A stretch of DNA of 42,577 bases, from positions 1-42,577 of the forward strand of contig CAIRXZ010000128.1 of the NCBI GenBank assembly GCA_903882645.1, given 5' to 3'. The translations under genes and the position numbers were made by a program. Below the pieces are notes generated by a model that saw only the letters and a list, made by a program, of their open reading frames with translations, searched no databases and was not told the DNA's origin. Every line of letters begins with the position of its first letter. Position 1 is the first letter of the stretch. Of this stretch, positions 13,767-39,607 are shown one piece after another. This DNA is from an uncultured Acidobacteriia bacterium. Lineage in GTDB: Bacteria > Acidobacteriota > Terriglobia > Bryobacterales > Bryobacteraceae.

Positions 13767-14081
13767 TCAAGCTGCGATTTCGCGAAGAACTTCGGGATGC
13801 AGCTCCGCGAGCCGTATGAGCGTCTTGGCGGCTCCACTCGGCTTCCGGCGCCCTTGCTCCCATTGTTCCAACGTGCGCTTCGAGATCCCGAGTAGAGCGG
13901 CGAACCGCTCCTGCGTGAGGCCCGAATTCAGTCGCGCGCGCACGATCGCCGAACTGGGCTCAACCGCAACCCGCTTGCCCCCACCCGCCTTGATTTCGAG
14001 TACGCCGTCCAGAACCTCCTGCCAGATGTCGCGGCCCGCCTCGAATCGGTTGAGCGCACGTCCCGTGAGCTTCTTACTCAT
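13767..14081 (-). CDS. Orphan HTH antitoxin (NadS/HigA-like)
   Basis: The 104-residue protein ends in an XRE-type helix-turn-helix (residues about 45-95: IVRARLNSGLTQERFAALLG, then SKRTLEQWEQGRRKPSGAAKTL). The pattern WEQGRRKPxGxAxxL is typical of NadS/HigA-type antitoxins that repress their own operon and neutralise a RelE/HigB-like toxin. Such genes normally lie directly downstream of the toxin. Here only the last 30 or so codons of that toxin remain, with its stop overlapping this start by 8 nt, so this antitoxin is now an orphan. It may persist as a free regulator or to counter a related toxin elsewhere. Confidence 0.82.
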   Translation of the reverse strand: MSKKLTGRALNRFEAGRDIWQEVLDGVLEIKAGGGKRVAVEPSSAIVRARLNSGLTQERFAALLGISKRTLEQWEQGRRKPSGAAKTLIRLAELHPEVLREIAA

Positions 14082-14169
14082 CCTCGAATGCCTCCTTCAG
14101 CCGTTTGAGTATGTGAGCAGGCGCGTTCTCCCGCTTTGCCTTGGCATACAGTATTAGCATCCAGACTTT
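14074..14169 (-). pseudogene. 3' stub of a RelE/HigB-family toxin
   Basis: Read on the minus strand, this stretch gives KVWMLILYAKAKRENAP followed by AHILKRLKEAFEDE and a stop (codons from 14169 down to TAA at 14076-14074). That is the usual C-terminus of RelE/HigB/NadT toxins, with the LYAK strand and the final helix. Above 14170 the frame loses all similarity, and a repeat plus a gspE fragment take its place. About 70-80 N-terminal codons, including most of the active site, are missing. The stop overlaps the antitoxin start, as in an intact toxin-antitoxin pair. Confidence 0.7.
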
Positions 14170-14228
14170 GATGCTACGTCTCTGGCGTATCCATGTCAAC
14201 CATGGATTGCCAGCATGCGTCCGGCCGC

Positions 14229-14257
14229 GGGCAACCGCTCTCTCACGTTCGCGGCTC
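14229..14257 (-). repeat. Short dispersed repeat (GAGCCGCG...GTGAG...GCGGTTGC type)
   Basis: On the minus strand this reads GAGCCGCGAACGTGAG followed by AGAGCGGTTGCCC. A second copy on the plus strand at 24319-24350 has GAGCCGCGGCCGTGAG followed by GGCCGGTTGC. It marks the exact edge of the duplicated gspE fragment. Confidence 0.5.
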
Positions 14258-14416
14258 GGAAGCGGCGCCTCAGAACTCCTGCATCGCGCGCATCGCTTCG
14301 TCCCCCGTGGTGACGCCGTCGCGGATCTTCATCCAGCCCTCCTCGCGCAGGTTGCGCATGCCGTTGCGGCGCGCGGCGGCGGTGAGCACGCTGGCGTCGG
14401 CGTCGCGCATGATGGG
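14258..14416 (-). pseudogene. Duplicated 3' end of gspE
   Basis: The minus strand encodes IMRDADASVLTAAARRNGMR, then NLREEGWMKIRDGVTT and a final AMQEF, matching GspE residues 516-562 with few changes. DNA similarity to 15297-15450 is strong and continues a few bases past the stop codon (both have GCGCCTCAGAACTCCTGC-like sequence). There is no start codon of its own and the rest of the ATPase is absent. With the true gspE end it forms a pair of direct repeats about 1.04 kb apart that bracket a toxin-antitoxin pair. Confidence 0.8.
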
Positions 14417-14417
14417 G

Positions 14418-14438
14418 ATAAGGGGTCCGACCCTTTTC
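14418..14438. repeat. GGGGTCxGACCC hairpin of the REP type
   Basis: The sequence AAGGGGTCCGACCCTTTT forms a short hairpin. Hairpins of the form AAGGGGTCxGACCCCTT are widespread in bacterial genomes and are often linked to REP-associated tyrosine transposases; that link is recalled knowledge, and no such transposase is in this window. It stands at the other edge of the gspE fragment. Confidence 0.5.
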
Positions 14439-14461
14439 CACTCACTGTGGGGTTGCCGCGG

Positions 14462-14467
14462 TACAAT
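14462..14467 (+). promoter_or_regulatory. -10-like TACAAT before the AF2212/MazF pair
   Basis: TACAAT stands 9 nt before the ATG at 14477, so transcription would begin close to or at the start codon. No good -35 at 16-18 bp spacing is seen. Confidence 0.45.
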
Positions 14468-14476
14468 CATTGAGGT

Positions 14477-14677
14477 ATGAGCGTCGCCGCACGGTATGAA
14501 AACGGAGTCTTCAGGCCGCTGGAGGAAGTGAAGGAGGCGCGAAAAGGCGGTGTGTACCGCGTTTTTTCGCAGGACGAACTGCGCGGCTTGAAGGACCAGA
14601 CCTCATGGCTGAAGGCCGCGGAACCCGGCTTCCAATTCTGGGACAACGACGAAGATGCCGTCTACGACCGGCTATAG
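14477..14677 (+). CDS. AF2212-like antitoxin
   Basis: The 66-residue protein begins with AARYENGVFRPLEEVKEA, the short barrel of AF2212-like (formerly DUF104) antitoxins. The tail ends in FWDNDEDAVYDRL, a motif common in antitoxins that precede MazF-type toxins and likely to bind the toxin. AF2212-like heads are also found with VapC partners, so this is a case of a common head with a MazF-specific tail. Its last 23 nt overlap the MazF gene, which supports tight coupling. GAGG lies too close to the ATG for good spacing; TACAAT 9 nt upstream suggests a near-leaderless start. Confidence 0.78.
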   Translation: MSVAARYENGVFRPLEEVKEARKGGVYRVFSQDELRGLKDQTSWLKAAEPGFQFWDNDEDAVYDRL

Positions 14678-15011
14678 GCAGGGCGATATCGTCCTCGTTT
14701 CGTTCCCATTCACCGACTTGACCTCGTTGAAACGCAGGCCGGCGGTCGTCGTTTCGGCGAACGCCTTCAACGCCCGCAACGAAGATGTCGTCCTGGTTGC
14801 GGTGACTTCGCAAGCCGCGCGGGATGCGGCAACCGTTCTCGTGGCGCAAAGCGACGTGATGGACGGCGCGCTCCCGAAAGAGTCGGTGGTACGCCTCGCA
14901 AAGATCTTCACCCTGCATTCGACTTTGGTCGTGAAGCGACTGTGCCGTCTGAATCCGGGAAAGAGAGACGAGTTGCTTCAGGCCTTGCAGGGCTTCTTTC
15001 GACGGGAGTAA
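14655..15011 (+). CDS. MazF/PemK-family mRNA interferase toxin
   Basis: The 118-residue product shows the family opening YRQGDIVLVSFPFTD (residues 7-21), the strand RRPAVVVSANAFN, and the second conserved block LPKESVVRLAKIFTL with the S/T residue near the active site. MazF-type enzymes cut single-stranded mRNA at short sequences and stop growth when not neutralised. It overlaps the AF2212-like antitoxin gene by 23 nt. Length and motifs look complete, so the pair is probably functional. It lies inside a 1-kb segment flanked by two copies of the gspE 3' end. Confidence 0.9.
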   Translation: MPSTTGYRQGDIVLVSFPFTDLTSLKRRPAVVVSANAFNARNEDVVLVAVTSQAARDAATVLVAQSDVMDGALPKESVVRLAKIFTLHSTLVVKRLCRLNPGKRDELLQALQGFFRRE

Positions 15012-15084
15012 GCGCCTGGGCTGGTCCACCGGAATCAACTGGAACTTCGACCGCGAAGCAGCCAGACGCGAGTGCGGCTACAAA

Positions 15085-15255
15085 ATGGCCGCATTTCTCC
15101 TGGAACAGCGCGGACTCGCGCCGAAGGACCTGTGGCCCGTGATCGGCTCCAAGAGCCGGGTCTCGGAGATCCTGGCCGGCAGGCGGTCCATCAGCAAAGG
15201 GCAGGCAAAGAAGCTCGCCGAGTTCTTCCGGGTTCGGGCGGATCTGTTTATCTGA
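15085..15255 (+). pseudogene. HigA-type antitoxin remnant
   Basis: The ATG at 15085 opens 56 codons reading MAAFLLEQRGLAPKDLWPVI, then GSKSRVSEILAGRRSISKGQ and a final ADLFI. This is the helix-turn-helix C-terminal half of HigA-type antitoxins (the pattern LGSRSRVSEVLxGKRxLS). Those proteins are normally about 120-140 residues; the N-terminal half is missing, and the same frame upstream is open to 14953 without a start codon and without family sequence. No toxin gene accompanies it. It could still be translated as a small DNA-binding peptide, but it is most simply a decayed gene. Confidence 0.65.
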
Positions 15256-15308
15256 GCCGCGCAGGCGCCATGGGCGAACTACACGCGGCGCAAGGGCGGA
15301 GCCGCCCC

Positions 15309-16997
15309 TCAGAACTCCTGCGTCACCCGCATTACTTCGTCCACGGTCGTGACGCCGTCGCGGATTTTCATCCAGCCGTCCTCGCGCAGGTTGCGCATGC
15401 CGTTGCGGCGCGCGGCTTCGGTGAGCACGCTGGCGTCCTCGTTGCGCATGATGAGCTTGCGGATCTCGTCGTCCAGGTTCATCATCTCGAAGATTCCGAC
15501 GCGCGATGTGTAGCCCGTGCCGTTGCAGGCCGGGCACCCCGCGCCGCGGAACGCCTCGACGGTCTCGCCAGCGGGCGAAAGAGCCGGCCCGGCGGGCTGC
15601 TTGCAGTGCTTGCAGATCACGCGCACCAGCCGCTGCGCCAGCACGGCCACCAGCGACGAGGTAATCAGGTAGTTCTCCACGCCCATATCCGTCAGGCGCG
15701 TGACGGCGCTGGGAGCGTCGTTGGTGTGCAGCGTCGAGAACACCAGGTGGCCGGTGAGCGCGGCGCGGATGGCGGTATCGGCGGTCTCGCGGTCGCGGAT
15801 TTCGCCCACCATGATGACGTCCGGGTCCTGGCGCACGATGTGGCGCAGACCGGCGGCGAACGTCAGCCCGATCTGCGGGTTCACGTGGATCTGGTTGATC
15901 CCGTCCATCTGGTATTCCACCGGGTCTTCGATGGTGATGATCTTCTTGTCGGGCAGGTTGATGCGCTTCAGGGCCGAATAGAGCGTGGTGGATTTGCCGC
16001 TGCCGGTCGGTCCGGTGACCAGGAAAATGCCGTGCGGCAGGCTGGTGAAATGCTCCATGCGGGCCAGCATGCGGCTGTCGAAGCCGAGGCCCTGGAGATC
16101 GTAGAAATCGCCGGCCGAGCGGTCGAGCAGGCGCATCACCACGCTTTCGCCGTAGAGCGTGGGCAGGGTGGACACGCGCAGGTCCACCTCGCGGCCCAGG
16201 ATCTTGATCTTGATGCGGCCGTCCTGCGGCAGGCGGCGCTCGGCGATGTTGAGCTTGGCCATCAGCTTGAGGCGGGAGACGATGGCGGCCTTGAGTTCGC
16301 GCGGCGGGGGTTCCTGGTTGAACAAAACGCCGTCCACGCGGAAGCGGACGCGGAACTCCTTCTCGAACGGTTCGATGTGGATGTCGCTCGCGCGCTTCTC
16401 GAGCGCGCCGGCGATCATGGCGTTGACCAGGCGGATGACGGGGGCCTCGCTGGCCATGTCGCGCAGGTGCTCGAGGTCGGCGGCGCCCTCTTCGTCCGCG
16501 CCGTCCCCGGCGGCGGTCTGGCGCTCGGCCTCCCCGTAATGTCTCTCGATGGCGTCGAGGATTTCCGGCTCGGCCGCCAGCGCGGTCCGCACCTCCAGGC
16601 CGCAGTAGGATCGCAGCGCCGCCACCGTGTCGAAGTCCAGCGGGTCGGCCATGGCGACGGTCAAAGTGGAATCCGCCAGCGCCACCGGATAGGCGCGGCA
16701 CTGGCGCAGGAAGCGATGCGAGAGGCCCTCGACTTCGGGGGCCTCGGGCGGCGGCTGGTCGACCGCGGCCAGCGGAATGTCGAGCTGCTCGGAGAGCGCG
16801 GCCAGCAGGTCGCGTTGCGCGATCAGCCCCATGTCCACCAGGATCTTGCCGAGCTTATCGCCGCGCTCCCTCTGCAATTCGAGCGCGCGCTCCAGGTCTT
16901 CCGCCTCGATCTTGCCGCGCTCGATGAGCATCTCGCCCAGGCGCGCAAAGCGCCGGACCGGTTCCGGATGCGGGGCGGGAAACTCCGTAGTGGCCAC
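15309..16997 (-). CDS. gspE: Type II secretion ATPase GspE
   Basis: The 562-residue cytoplasmic ATPase drives pseudopilus assembly. Residues about 15-160 form the MshEN-type N-terminal domain (GEMLIERGKIEAEDLERALE). Walker A is GPTGSGKST at 329-337; the Asp box (ITIEDPVEYQMDGINQ) follows; Walker B is DPDVIMVGEIRD at 391-402; the His box is HLVFSTLHTNDA. A zinc-binding pair of CxxC motifs lies at 462/465 and 488/491, typical of GspE. The start is a GTG immediately after the stop of the upstream gene. It is absent from the main gsp cluster at 30-39 kb and instead ends an operon with an ECF sigma/anti-sigma pair. A type IV pilus PilB is the alternative, but the only assembly platform here is T2SS. 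Confidence 0.9.
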   Translation of the reverse strand: MATTEFPAPHPEPVRRFARLGEMLIERGKIEAEDLERALELQRERGDKLGKILVDMGLIAQRDLLAALSEQLDIPLAAVDQPPPEAPEVEGLSHRFLRQCRAYPVALADSTLTVAMADPLDFDTVAALRSYCGLEVRTALAAEPEILDAIERHYGEAERQTAAGDGADEEGAADLEHLRDMASEAPVIRLVNAMIAGALEKRASDIHIEPFEKEFRVRFRVDGVLFNQEPPPRELKAAIVSRLKLMAKLNIAERRLPQDGRIKIKILGREVDLRVSTLPTLYGESVVMRLLDRSAGDFYDLQGLGFDSRMLARMEHFTSLPHGIFLVTGPTGSGKSTTLYSALKRINLPDKKIITIEDPVEYQMDGINQIHVNPQIGLTFAAGLRHIVRQDPDVIMVGEIRDRETADTAIRAALTGHLVFSTLHTNDAPSAVTRLTDMGVENYLITSSLVAVLAQRLVRVICKHCKQPAGPALSPAGETVEAFRGAGCPACNGTGYTSRVGIFEMMNLDDEIRKLIMRNEDASVLTEAARRNGMRNLREDGWMKIRDGVTTVDEVMRVTQEF

Positions 16998-22161: not shown

Positions 22162-24045
22162 CTACGCAGTCCCGCCGCGCAGGAGGGACGCGGCCGTGGG
22201 AGCCGCCACGCCGGCAATGCGGGGCGCCTCTTCCCGGGCAGCTTCCTGTTCGCCTTCGCCGGGCGCCAGGAACAGGTTCGCGTCCATGCCGTGTTGCCGC
22301 GTGTACAGGTCGTGATAGCGTCCTTGCGCCGCGTAAAGGGATTCGTGCGCGCCGCGCTCCACGATGCGGCCTTCCTCCACCACCAGGATCTGGTCCGCCC
22401 GGCGGATAGTGGAGAGGCGGTGCGCGATCACGAACGTGGTGCGTCCCTTCATGAGGTAAGCCAGGCCTTCCTGGATGGCGGCCTCGGATTCCGAATCCAG
22501 GCTCGAAGTGGCTTCGTCCAGGATCAGGATGCGCGGATCGGCGAGGATGGCGCGGGCGATCGAAACCCGCTGGCGCTGCCCGCCGGAAAGCTTCACGCCG
22601 CGCTCGCCCACGACGGTGTCGTATTTCAGATCGAAGCGCTCCGCGAACTCGTCCACCCGCGCGATGCGGCATGCCGCCATGACCTGTTCCTGGGAGGCCG
22701 CGGGCCGGGCGAACGCCACGTTCTCGCGAATCGTTCCGTCGAACAGGAACGTGTCCTGAAGCACCACCCCAAGCTACGTGCGGTACGCGTCCAGCCGGAC
22801 GGTGGAAAGGTCGATTCCGTCCACTCGGATCACGCCTTGGGTGGGCTGGTGAAAGGCCGCAACCAGGCTGATGATGGTGGATTTTCCCGAGCCCGACGAC
22901 CCCACCAGCGCAGTCACGGCGCCGGGTTGCGCGTCGAAGCTCATCTCATAGAGCACCGGCTTGCCGGGGTCGTAGGCGAAGCCGACATTCTCGAAGGAGA
23001 CGTCGCCGTGAATGGGGCCCACGGTCCGTGTGCGGCGCTCTTCCTCGTCCTCGGGCTTTTCCCGCAGAACTTCCTGGGTGCGGTCCAGGCCCGCCAGCGC
23101 CTCGGTGATCTGGGTTCCAATCCCCACCATTTGGAACACGGGCGCGACCCGAAACGCCAGGAACGCGGTGAAGCGCCACAAATCGCCCAGGGTCATCGAC
23201 CCCGCCAGGATCTGCCGCGCGCCCACGTACATCACCGCCGCGCCCACCACGCCCATCAGCACCGTGGCGGTGAGGCCCATCAGCGAGATCGCGGTCAGCG
23301 ATCGCATCACGTTCTGAAGCAGCCGCTCCGTTCCGGCCGCAAACACCTTGGCCTCCCCGGCCTCGGCGTGGTAGCCCTTAACCACGCGCACCCCCGCCAG
23401 CGATTCCGTGAGCCGGCCGGTGACCTCGGCCGTGATCTGGCCGCGCTCGCGGAAAATCGGCCGGATGCCCTTGAAGGCCTTCCGCAGAATCAGCGCGAAG
23501 ACGGCGATGAAAAACAGCGCCATTACCGTGAGGACGGGGCTGGTGTACATCAGGATGCCGAGCGAGAAAGTAGCCAGCAGAATGCCGCCCACCAGGTCCA
23601 CCAGGCCGGTGCCCAGCAGGTTGCGGACGCCCTCCACATCGCTCATGATGCGCGATACCAGCATGCCGGCCTTGTTGGCGTCGTAGTAGGCCACGGGCAG
23701 GCGCCCGATGTGCTCCTGGACCCTCCGCCGCAGTTGCGCGATCAGCCGTTGCCCCTCTTTGGAGAGCAGTTGCGTCAGCGCATAGGACGTGACTCCCTGA
23801 ATGCAGGTGGCCGCCAGCACCGCCAGGATCAACGGCGTCAGCAGCGCAATTTGACGCTTGCCGATGACGTTATCCACCAAATACTTGGTGGAGGCGGGTA
23901 ACACCAGGCTGGTGGTCTTGTTGATGACCATCAAAACGAAGCCGAGCGCCAGCAATTTGCGCCGCGGCCGCACCAGTTCCTTGATGAGAGGCAGCGCGTT
24001 GTGCAGACTCTCGGAAGGTCTGCGTTTAGGTTGAGGAGGAAACAC
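22162..24045 (-). pseudogene. ABC exporter (fused membrane and ATPase domains) split by an in-frame TAG
   Basis: The frame runs from a GTG at 24045 to 22162, about 627 codons, interrupted once by TAG at 22776-22774. Codons 1-320 form the six-helix exporter membrane domain (ALGFVLMVINKTTSLVLPAS to FLAFRVAPVFQMVGIGTQI). Walker A is GSSGSGKST at 382-390. The stop replaces codon 424 in YRTxLGVVLQDTFLFDG, where relatives usually have Gln, so CAG to TAG is the simple explanation. Beyond it the same frame continues with the Q-loop, LSGGQRQRVSIARAIL, Walker B LILDEATSSLD and the H-loop AHRLST, all intact. The short product would lack ATP hydrolysis; a separate downstream product from the GTG at 22767 is possible but lacks Walker A. 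Sequencing error or readthrough would restore a normal lipid/multidrug (MsbA-like) exporter. Confidence 0.85.
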
Positions 24046-24533
24046 TAGTTCCAGGGTACAACGGGGGAAGGGCGCCGGCCGGCCGACGGGTCCGCCGAAA
24101 CACGATCCTGTGGAGCGGCGCCCGGCTTCGCGGAAACGGCGCAAACCGGGTGCGCGACAAGAAGGTGAAAATCGAGGACCGGCATCCAAGCTCCGAAGGA
24201 GCGGCAGACAGTAGGCCACGGCGCGAGCCGTGGGAGGAGTGCGAAATCGATCAAGCCCCGGCACGGGGCGAAAGAACGCTCTTCCGCTTCTCACGGCCGC
24301 GGCTCCCATGCGCGTTGAGAGCCGCGGCCGTGAGGGGCCGGTTGCAGGCGATTGAACTGGTTACTTCGTGACTTGCCCTAAACCACAGGCCGCTGGATTC
24401 GGTGATTTTGGGCAACCGCTCGCCAACACTCACTGCTCCGCACGGAGCCACGACGATAAGAAACGGTTGCCCGCGGAATATCACGCGCGGCGCGAGACTT
24501 AGCTCGGGACGCGATACCGGGCGTCTAATCCGA
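24046..24533. other. Long intergenic region with inverted repeats
   Basis: No gene is supported in these 488 bases. They contain a perfect 16-bp inverted repeat (24290-24305 with 24319-24334, CTCACGGCCGCGGCTC) and a second, nested structure: GGGCAACCG at 24410-24418 pairs with CGGTTGCCC at 24464-24472 around GCTCCG-CA-CGGAGC at 24435-24448. The second lies just after the PEP-CTERM gene stop (minus strand) and may terminate it. Confidence 0.6.
24290..24334. repeat. Perfect 16-bp inverted repeat
   Basis: CTCACGGCCGCGGCTC (24290-24305) is repeated in inverse at 24319-24334 with a 13-nt loop. The right half plus its flank (GCCGGTTGC) matches the dispersed repeat at 14229-14257. Confidence 0.8.
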
Positions 24534-38126: not shown

Positions 38127-39338
38127 TCACCCCGCCACTTCGTTGATGCTCGTGATGGCGAGCAGCATGCTGAGGATCAGCGCTCCCACCATCACGCCCA
38201 TGACCAGTATCACCACCGGCTCGAACACCGAAGTGAAGCGCCGGATGGCGACGCGCGTATCGTTATCGTAAATATCGGCCATGCGCGCGAACATCTGGTC
38301 GATCCTTCCGGTCTCCTCGCCCACCGCCAGCAGGTGCGCGGCCAGCGGCGGAAAGACGCCCGCCTTGCGAATCGGCGCGGCGATGCCTTCTCCGCGCTTG
38401 ACGCCATCGATGACGCCCGCGAGCGTCCGCGCAATCGTCCTGTTATTCAGAGTAGCAGCGGAGATGGCGATGCACTGCACCAGCGGCACCGTGTTCGCCA
38501 CCAGGGTCGCCATGGCGCGCGCGAAACGCGCCGTTTCGGCTTTCAGAAGCGCGTCGCCCAGCATGGGGATCTTCAGCTTCGCGCGGTCCCACCAGGCGCG
38601 CCCCGCCGCCGTGCGCAGGTACGCCTGCCAGCCCGCCGCGCCCGCGGCCAGCGCCAGGGCGGCCACCCACCAATAGGAGCGCACGTACTGGCTGGCCGCC
38701 AGCATGATCGCGGTGGGCACGGGAATCTTCATGCTGGACCCTTCGAAGATGGTGGCGAAGCGCGGCACCACGAAGCCCAGCAGGACGACGATGGAGCACA
38801 GACCCACCGTCGCCAGCAGGGCCGGGTAGATCATCGAGGAGATGATGAAGCCGCGCAGATCGTCGCGCGAGCGCTCGAACTCCGCCAAACGCTCGAAGAT
38901 GGTCGCCAGCGCGCCGGAAGCTTCGCCCGCCCGCACCATGTTGACGTAGAGATCCGAGAAATACTCGGGGTGGGTGGTCAGGCTGTTGGCCAGCGAGCTG
39001 CCGCCCTTGAGAACGCGCAGCACGTCCAGCACGATGAACCGGAAGTCGGGCCGCTCGGTCAATTCGGCCGTGATGGTCAGCGCGCGGTCGAGCGGCACCC
39101 CGGCGTTGAGCAGGGTGGAAAGCTCCTGCGTGAAGAAGAGCACGTCCCGGCGCTTTCCCTTTCCGAACGACGGCAGCTTGATCTCGAAGGAGGCGCCCTT
39201 GGGCGCGACGCCCACATAGACCGGCGTAAGCCCCTGCGTAAGCAGTTCCCGTGCGACGGCCTTCTCGTTGTCGCCCGCCAGGCTGCCGCTGCGGACTTTG
39301 CCGTCCGCCGCCACCGCCTTGAAGAAAAAGGTAGCCAT
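38127..39338 (-). CDS. gspF: Inner-membrane platform protein GspF
   Basis: The 403-residue membrane protein contains two copies of the T2SSF domain. The first includes LFFTQELSTLLNAGVPLDRA, the second FARAMATLVANTVPLVQCIA; membrane helices lie at about 165-190, 213-235 and 370-395 (VILVMGVMVGALILSMLLAI). GspF connects the ATPase to pseudopilus growth. It is the first gene of the cluster, but no Shine-Dalgarno precedes the ATG and a palindromic GTGGGGCGGGC element begins only 4 nt upstream, leaving little room for an ordinary promoter or leader. Confidence 0.93.
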   Translation of the reverse strand: MATFFFKAVAADGKVRSGSLAGDNEKAVARELLTQGLTPVYVGVAPKGASFEIKLPSFGKGKRRDVLFFTQELSTLLNAGVPLDRALTITAELTERPDFRFIVLDVLRVLKGGSSLANSLTTHPEYFSDLYVNMVRAGEASGALATIFERLAEFERSRDDLRGFIISSMIYPALLATVGLCSIVVLLGFVVPRFATIFEGSSMKIPVPTAIMLAASQYVRSYWWVAALALAAGAAGWQAYLRTAAGRAWWDRAKLKIPMLGDALLKAETARFARAMATLVANTVPLVQCIAISAATLNNRTIARTLAGVIDGVKRGEGIAAPIRKAGVFPPLAAHLLAVGEETGRIDQMFARMADIYDNDTRVAIRRFTSVFEPVVILVMGVMVGALILSMLLAITSINEVAG

Positions 39339-39342
39339 TTAG

Positions 39343-39455
39343 AGTGGGGCGGGCCTCCTGGCCTGCCTTCTTCTAAGGATAGACGCAGCCGCCCCCCAAA
39401 AAGTCGGACGCCGCCGGTGGGGCGGACCATCGTTGTTTGTGGTCTGCCCGGCAGC
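39343..39455. repeat. Two palindromic elements before gspF
   Basis: GTGGGGCGGGCCTCCTGGCC occurs at about 39344-39363, and GGTGGGGCGGACCATCG with GGTCTGCCCGGC at 39417-39452 (GGCGGACC pairs with GGTCTGCC). Both belong to the family seen at 4392, 10155, 18790, 22084 and 42431. The region 39339-39607 has no gene and would hold the gsp promoter on the minus strand and that of the small membrane protein on the plus strand. Confidence 0.55.
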
Positions 39456-39607
39456 CGCCAAGCGGCCAGACGGCCGAAAAGCTGAAAGCTGAAGTCCCGC
39501 GAAAGCGAGCCGCGGATCTCTCCCGGGTTGCGCACGCGAAGCCCGAGGTTCCGGCAAATAGCGTCGCCATGGCGTATCATTATCTCTATCCTCGGCTGGA
39601 GGTTGAA

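Follow-up and report, generated by a model that had tools for sequence, protein, structure and literature searches.

Genomic islands and prophages that reside at the 3' ends of genes, such as e14 in icd, are arranged as an intact gene and a displaced 3' end in direct orientation, with the cargo between them. Insertion with long target duplications, of the order of 100 bp and linked to genome rearrangements, has been reported for restriction-modification (RM) genes (PMC3874152, PMC1643837), including those of Helicobacter pylori (Nobusato et al. 2000, as described in these two papers). REP/REPIN repeats and RAYT transposases (PMC3116915, PMC2817692) constitute a further system for comparison. 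The locus that we compared with these systems lies behind gspE in a stretch of 42,577 nucleotides (referred to as "the window") from G000, a 5.27-Mb draft genome of the family Bryobacteraceae.

The intact gspE gene of the window (positions 15309 to 16997, minus strand) encodes a T2SS/PilB-type ATPase of 562 amino acids (Pfam T2SSE, E = 5e-143), and its orthologues in most relatives are 71-86% identical. A direct-repeat comparison and alignments showed that the 3' end of this gene (15300-15453, minus strand) recurs in the same orientation at 14261-14414 (minus strand), over 154 nt with 89% identity and at a spacing of 1,039 bp, which bears out the original prediction that about 150 bp of the gspE 3' end are repeated at 14258-14416, some 1.04 kb away; the next-best direct repeats in the surrounding 6 kb span approx. 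30 nt at 73% identity. The distal copy is a 5'-truncated fragment with an open frame, which begins at approximately GspE residue 515 and encodes the last 47 residues and the stop codon. Whole-genome BLAST found these two copies of the gspE 3' end in G000 and no third copy. An origin of the fragment from another gspE-like gene was rejected, as no gene closer to it than gspE was found in its own genome or in the family genomes, and no relative was found that carries the fragment without the toxin-antitoxin (TA) genes. Every other family genome has a single gspE 3' end, except G008, whose second end was rejected as a bracket (it lies on another contig, and both G008 copies run straight into gspF). 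The search for the same pair of gspE ends elsewhere, which had been proposed as a check, was negative; no pair bracketing cargo or TA genes was found in any of the 197 other family genomes (198 including G000). These comparisons support the view that the fragment represents a true copy of the gspE of G000 or of a close congener.

Between the two copies, Pfam matches and a comparison of HigA sequences confirmed the predicted intact AF2212-like/MazF pair and HigA stub. The AF2212-like antitoxin, which occupies the MazE position (14477-14677, plus strand; 66 amino acids; Pfam E = 3.5e-5), lies upstream of a MazF/PemK toxin of 118 amino acids (14655-15011, plus strand; PF02452, E = 5e-17, residues 8-114), and the two genes overlap by 23 nt. 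Partners 53-58% identical to the antitoxin were found at four loci (L033, L222, L223 and L224), three of which (L033, L222 and L223) also show the pairing with PemK/MazF; relatives of the toxin are 54-56% identical. The G+C content of the pair (0.59-0.60) is below that of the window (0.656), and 62 bp separate the start of the antitoxin gene from the gspE fragment on its truncated side. Compared to MazEF/PemIK-type modules with an AF2212-like antitoxin, no difference was detected, i.e., the toxin has the same PemK/MazF domain, a small cognate antitoxin is located just upstream with the same overlap, and homologous pairs exist in other Acidobacteriota. No gspE ends were found beside the related MazEF pairs in other Acidobacteriota. 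The pair may still act as an ordinary type II TA, with an mRNA-cleaving toxin held by the overlapping antitoxin, and a functional MazEF would be expected to resist loss of the 1-kb segment through recombination between the repeats.

The HigA-like remnant (15037-15254, plus strand) corresponds to residues 62-138 of an antitoxin of 138 amino acids, i.e., to its C-terminal 77 residues, the first 61 having been lost, and it adjoins the intact gspE and not the distal fragment. In G002, which belongs to the same genus, gspE is followed after eight bases by complete, convergent HigA and HigB genes in the same place, and the HigA C-termini of the window and of G002 are 90% identical in DNA. Beyond HigB, G002 carries a 25-30 bp piece of a RelE-like toxin on the same strand, and then hsp20-like and clpB-like genes (both named from their translations). 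The window contains a second TA remnant, in which an intact XRE/HigA-like antitoxin (13767-14081, minus strand; identified by a domain match and 78-81% identical in G004, G033 and G006) is preceded on its 5' side by the final codons of a RelE-like toxin together with a promoter-like site (14074-14199, minus strand; the full-length toxin is present in G004, and the site was recognized by a promoter-like match). Across 13767-14199 most of the RelE-like toxin is deleted, with the promoter-like site and the XRE antitoxin kept. The XRE antitoxin would be an orphan, and HigA and RelE are probably dead relics.

As complete HigBA genes are located directly behind gspE in G002, with HigA 90% identical, HigA is older than the arrangement in the window and did not form one cargo with MazEF; the proposed comparison with relatives lacking the island does not support a single TA cargo. 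HigBA was most likely present behind gspE already in the common ancestor of G000 and G002, and since G002 shares both HigBA and the RelE piece at this place, the TA genes clustered behind gspE are most likely older than the divergence of the two genomes. The lineage of the window has lost HigB and the N-terminus of HigA, and MazEF, a hairpin and the gspE fragment now stand where these were.

To estimate the age of the event, the two copies were aligned, as had been suggested with the original prediction. Within the final 144 nt, the fragment shares 89.6% of its bases with its own gspE and 88.9% with the gspE of G002, and the two intact genes are 92.4% identical to each other; at third codon positions, identity is 0.83 in all three pairings. 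The gspE end of G001, another member of the genus, is 83-86% identical to each of the three sequences. A post-stop motif (GAGG.GC.GCT) is common to the fragment, its own gspE and the gspE of G002 and is absent from G001 and others, and the fragment carries none of the changes private to the gspE of the window (both read from the alignment). When the 141-nt ends of the fragment, gspE and the G002 gspE were placed in a bootstrapped tree, they came out as a star. That the intact gspE end had undergone gene conversion was considered and rejected, as its similarity to G002 stays even (89-93%) across the final 700 bp. The fragment and its own gspE show 4 differences in synonymous codons and 11 in non-synonymous ones, as compared to 7 and 4, respectively, between the own gspE and that of G002, which indicates relaxed selection on the fragment; moreover, VMRVTQEF, invariant in the aligned genes, reads AMRAMQEF in the fragment. 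As the two copies are approximately as diverged as the two species, the event is old. The fragment has escaped GspE-type constraint and is a dead copy, approximately as old as the species split, that derives from the G000 lineage or a close congener.

The distal copy had also been predicted to be edged by two small repeats, of which only the hairpin proved real as a local feature. The sequence at 14229-14257 is part of a dispersed repeat (14217-14269, core 14232-14260) that lies directly against the fragment's stop codon and that, in genome BLAST, has at least 39 further copies in G000 as well as copies in relatives. At locus L006, two copies form a long palindromic pair (folding z -6.3). We classified this repeat as REP/REPIN-like because it is dispersed, occurs in this high number and forms a palindromic pair at another locus. 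The likeness to REP/REPIN systems consists in a short high-copy repeat, a palindromic pair elsewhere in G000 and a Y1-type (RAYT-like) transposase gene behind gspE in G098 (a weak Pfam match), and the difference in that the window holds only a half-element. An apparent Y1-type transposase remnant was also read behind gspE in G225/G227, and in G024 (L081:8190-8500) the same REP-like family, apparently interrupted by other DNA, lies between gspF and gspG. The truncated edge of the fragment is marked by an imperfect palindrome, AAGGGGTCCGACCCTTTT (14418-14438), which is single-copy in the genome. The GGGGTCCGACCC hairpin (14420-14437) is real, with 0.09 matches expected in the window, and its folding is unremarkable (z -1.5); the readings that it is dispersed, or that it belongs to the MazEF cassette, were rejected, as it occurs once in the genome and is absent beside the related MazEF pairs.

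The region is also a point of gene-order change. Of the 111 genomes that offered enough sequence for a judgement, 97 have the start of gspF 3-243 bp behind gspE; in the window, mapping against relatives placed gspF (38127-39338, minus strand), which directly follows gspE in most relatives, approximately 22 kb away. The gspE block and the gspF-to-gspD block have kept their strand and exchanged their order, with approximately 8 kb of other DNA between them (synteny was derived from protein-to-locus mapping, window-wide tblastx being too noisy), and conservation on the larC side ends at the start of larC. Because gspF has been relocated and the order of the gsp blocks exchanged, the segment from 13.4 to 15.3 kb represents a synteny breakpoint between the larC and gspE neighbourhoods. 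The wider gsp permutation could in part be an assembly effect, since the contig comes from a draft genome of 366 contigs. An origin of the fragment by circular permutation, together with the gspE/gspF split, was rejected, as neither gspF nor gspE sequence is present on the required side. The type II secretion operon is thus both split and permuted across 15309-39338, with the gspE block on the left and the gspF-to-gspD block on the right, and copies of two further families of dispersed repeats directly adjoin the start of gspF (39342-39466). Between the gsp blocks, in DNA found only in G000, ABC transporter genes (22162-24309) are split into two ORFs and are possibly frameshifted, and an ORF with a weak TIR-domain match (94-1188) is located at the left end of the window. 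On the other side of the breakpoint, G003 (L110:2659-3250) carries a ParE toxin and a Phd-like antitoxin directly upstream of larC.

Overall, we lean slightly towards interpreting the locus as a rearrangement junction behind gspE, old and in decay, at which MazEF and a gspE end from the same or a close genome were joined by recombination, and not as a mobile TA island; the case appears to be messy but mostly ordinary genome turnover. A recombination approximately as old as the G000/G002 split would have brought MazEF into the TA cluster, together with a gspE 3' end that came from the same genome or a very close one. This could have occurred through a single-crossover (Campbell-like) or unequal-crossover duplication of a segment comprising the gspE end, the HigA C-terminus and MazEF, with the second HigA then lost, or through insertion of one piece comprising MazEF and a gspE end into HigB/HigA. 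Among the genomes compared, four of which represent the genus, we found no intermediates (gspE-HigA-MazEF without the fragment, or gspE-REP-RelE/XRE without HigA and MazEF). Of the original proposal that the TA cargo arrived through target duplication or through recombination between gspE ends, recombination at the gspE end agrees with the geometry, and the notion of one cargo with a target duplication is not supported, HigA being ancestral and adjacent to the intact gspE. An alternative that we regard as possible, though distinctly less probable, is that two unrelated events are superimposed, i.e., that the gspE piece was left by the rearrangement that separated gspE from gspF, that MazEF later entered HigA, and that the bracketing is coincidental. 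The larC/gspE breakpoint is full of unrelated TA pieces, G000 is rich in TA genes (46 PIN-domain hits as compared to 9-12 in G001 and G003), and relatives have TA modules behind gspE without a gspE duplication, all of which speak for two events; however, an antitoxin gene only 62 bp from the fragment edge, with a same-strand gspE end exactly here, would be an improbable coincidence.

Insertion of an addiction module into the gspE 3' end with duplication of a target of about 150 bp appears improbable. The locus resembles the RM cases (PMC3874152, PMC1643837) in that an addiction-type module lies between same-strand direct repeats of approx. 100-150 bp of a resident gene, that relatives without the insertion have a single copy of the target, and that rearrangements are linked; it differs in that the module is MazEF, the copies have diverged by 11%, and a TA already resident at the locus was lost. 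Moreover, under simple target duplication the old neighbour HigA should follow the distal copy, yet it is located between the copies and touches the intact gspE; because of this order of neighbours, we do not classify the locus as a long target duplication. It is very improbable that a small integrative element, site-specific for the gspE 3' end, restored the gene with its own end and was later reduced to its TA genes. Although the intact gene, the cargo and the displaced 3' end in direct orientation reproduce the geometry of islands at gene 3' ends, the cargo measures 1 kb, neither the ORF list nor Pfam revealed an integrase or recombinase ORF in 14229-15450, no second pair of gspE ends around cargo was found in the 197 other family genomes, and TA modules occur at the gspE junction of relatives without repeated gspE ends. 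A chimeric contig joined at repeats has the smallest probability of all. The fragmented assembly and the REP-like repeats that flank the broken gspE-gspF junction would permit such an artefact, but the gspE-HigA junction was found independently in G002, and the fragment is not identical to gspE and hence is no collapsed or mis-joined read.

TA genes were found behind gspE in 8 of the 111 genomes surveyed, representing about five lineages (G000/G002, G001, G029, G037 and the genus of G116, G118 and G120, of which G120 has a DUF433 piece only), with different TA families each time, namely HigBA/MazEF, VapBC-like (Phd-like antitoxin and PIN), FitAB-type, ParE-like with PIN, and DUF433/DUF6364 with PIN. 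In G001, for example, gspE is followed by a Phd-like/PIN module and then by gspF. At the neighbouring gspF-gspG junction, two insertions were counted in 92 genomes (including our own reading of three unmatched loci), both of them resembling repeats or transposases and neither carrying TA genes. The difference between the two junctions in TA genes was P = 0.009 per genome and P = 0.06 per lineage, the control junction having been chosen after the data were seen; genomes such as G000 are, in addition, rich in TA genes (46 PIN-domain hits). The pattern is no more than suggestive, and we propose, with less than even confidence, that the gspE 3' junction has served unrelated TA modules of this family repeatedly as a landing site, in a way that the gspF-gspG junction has not.

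The occurrence of TA genes behind gspE several times in the family is the most useful clue provided by this locus. It offers a roughly datable case of TA turnover at one place, where a HigA older than the species split was cut down and MazEF took its place, with the gene-end duplication as the scar of that turnover. If the recurrence is true, the junction provides a defined locus for studying what makes TA modules take up residence at certain operon junctions and whether they contribute to the fixation of rearrangements at such sites. G002 has 35 PIN-domain hits, next to the 46 of G000 and the 9-12 of G001 and G003, and TA content thus varies several-fold within the genus.
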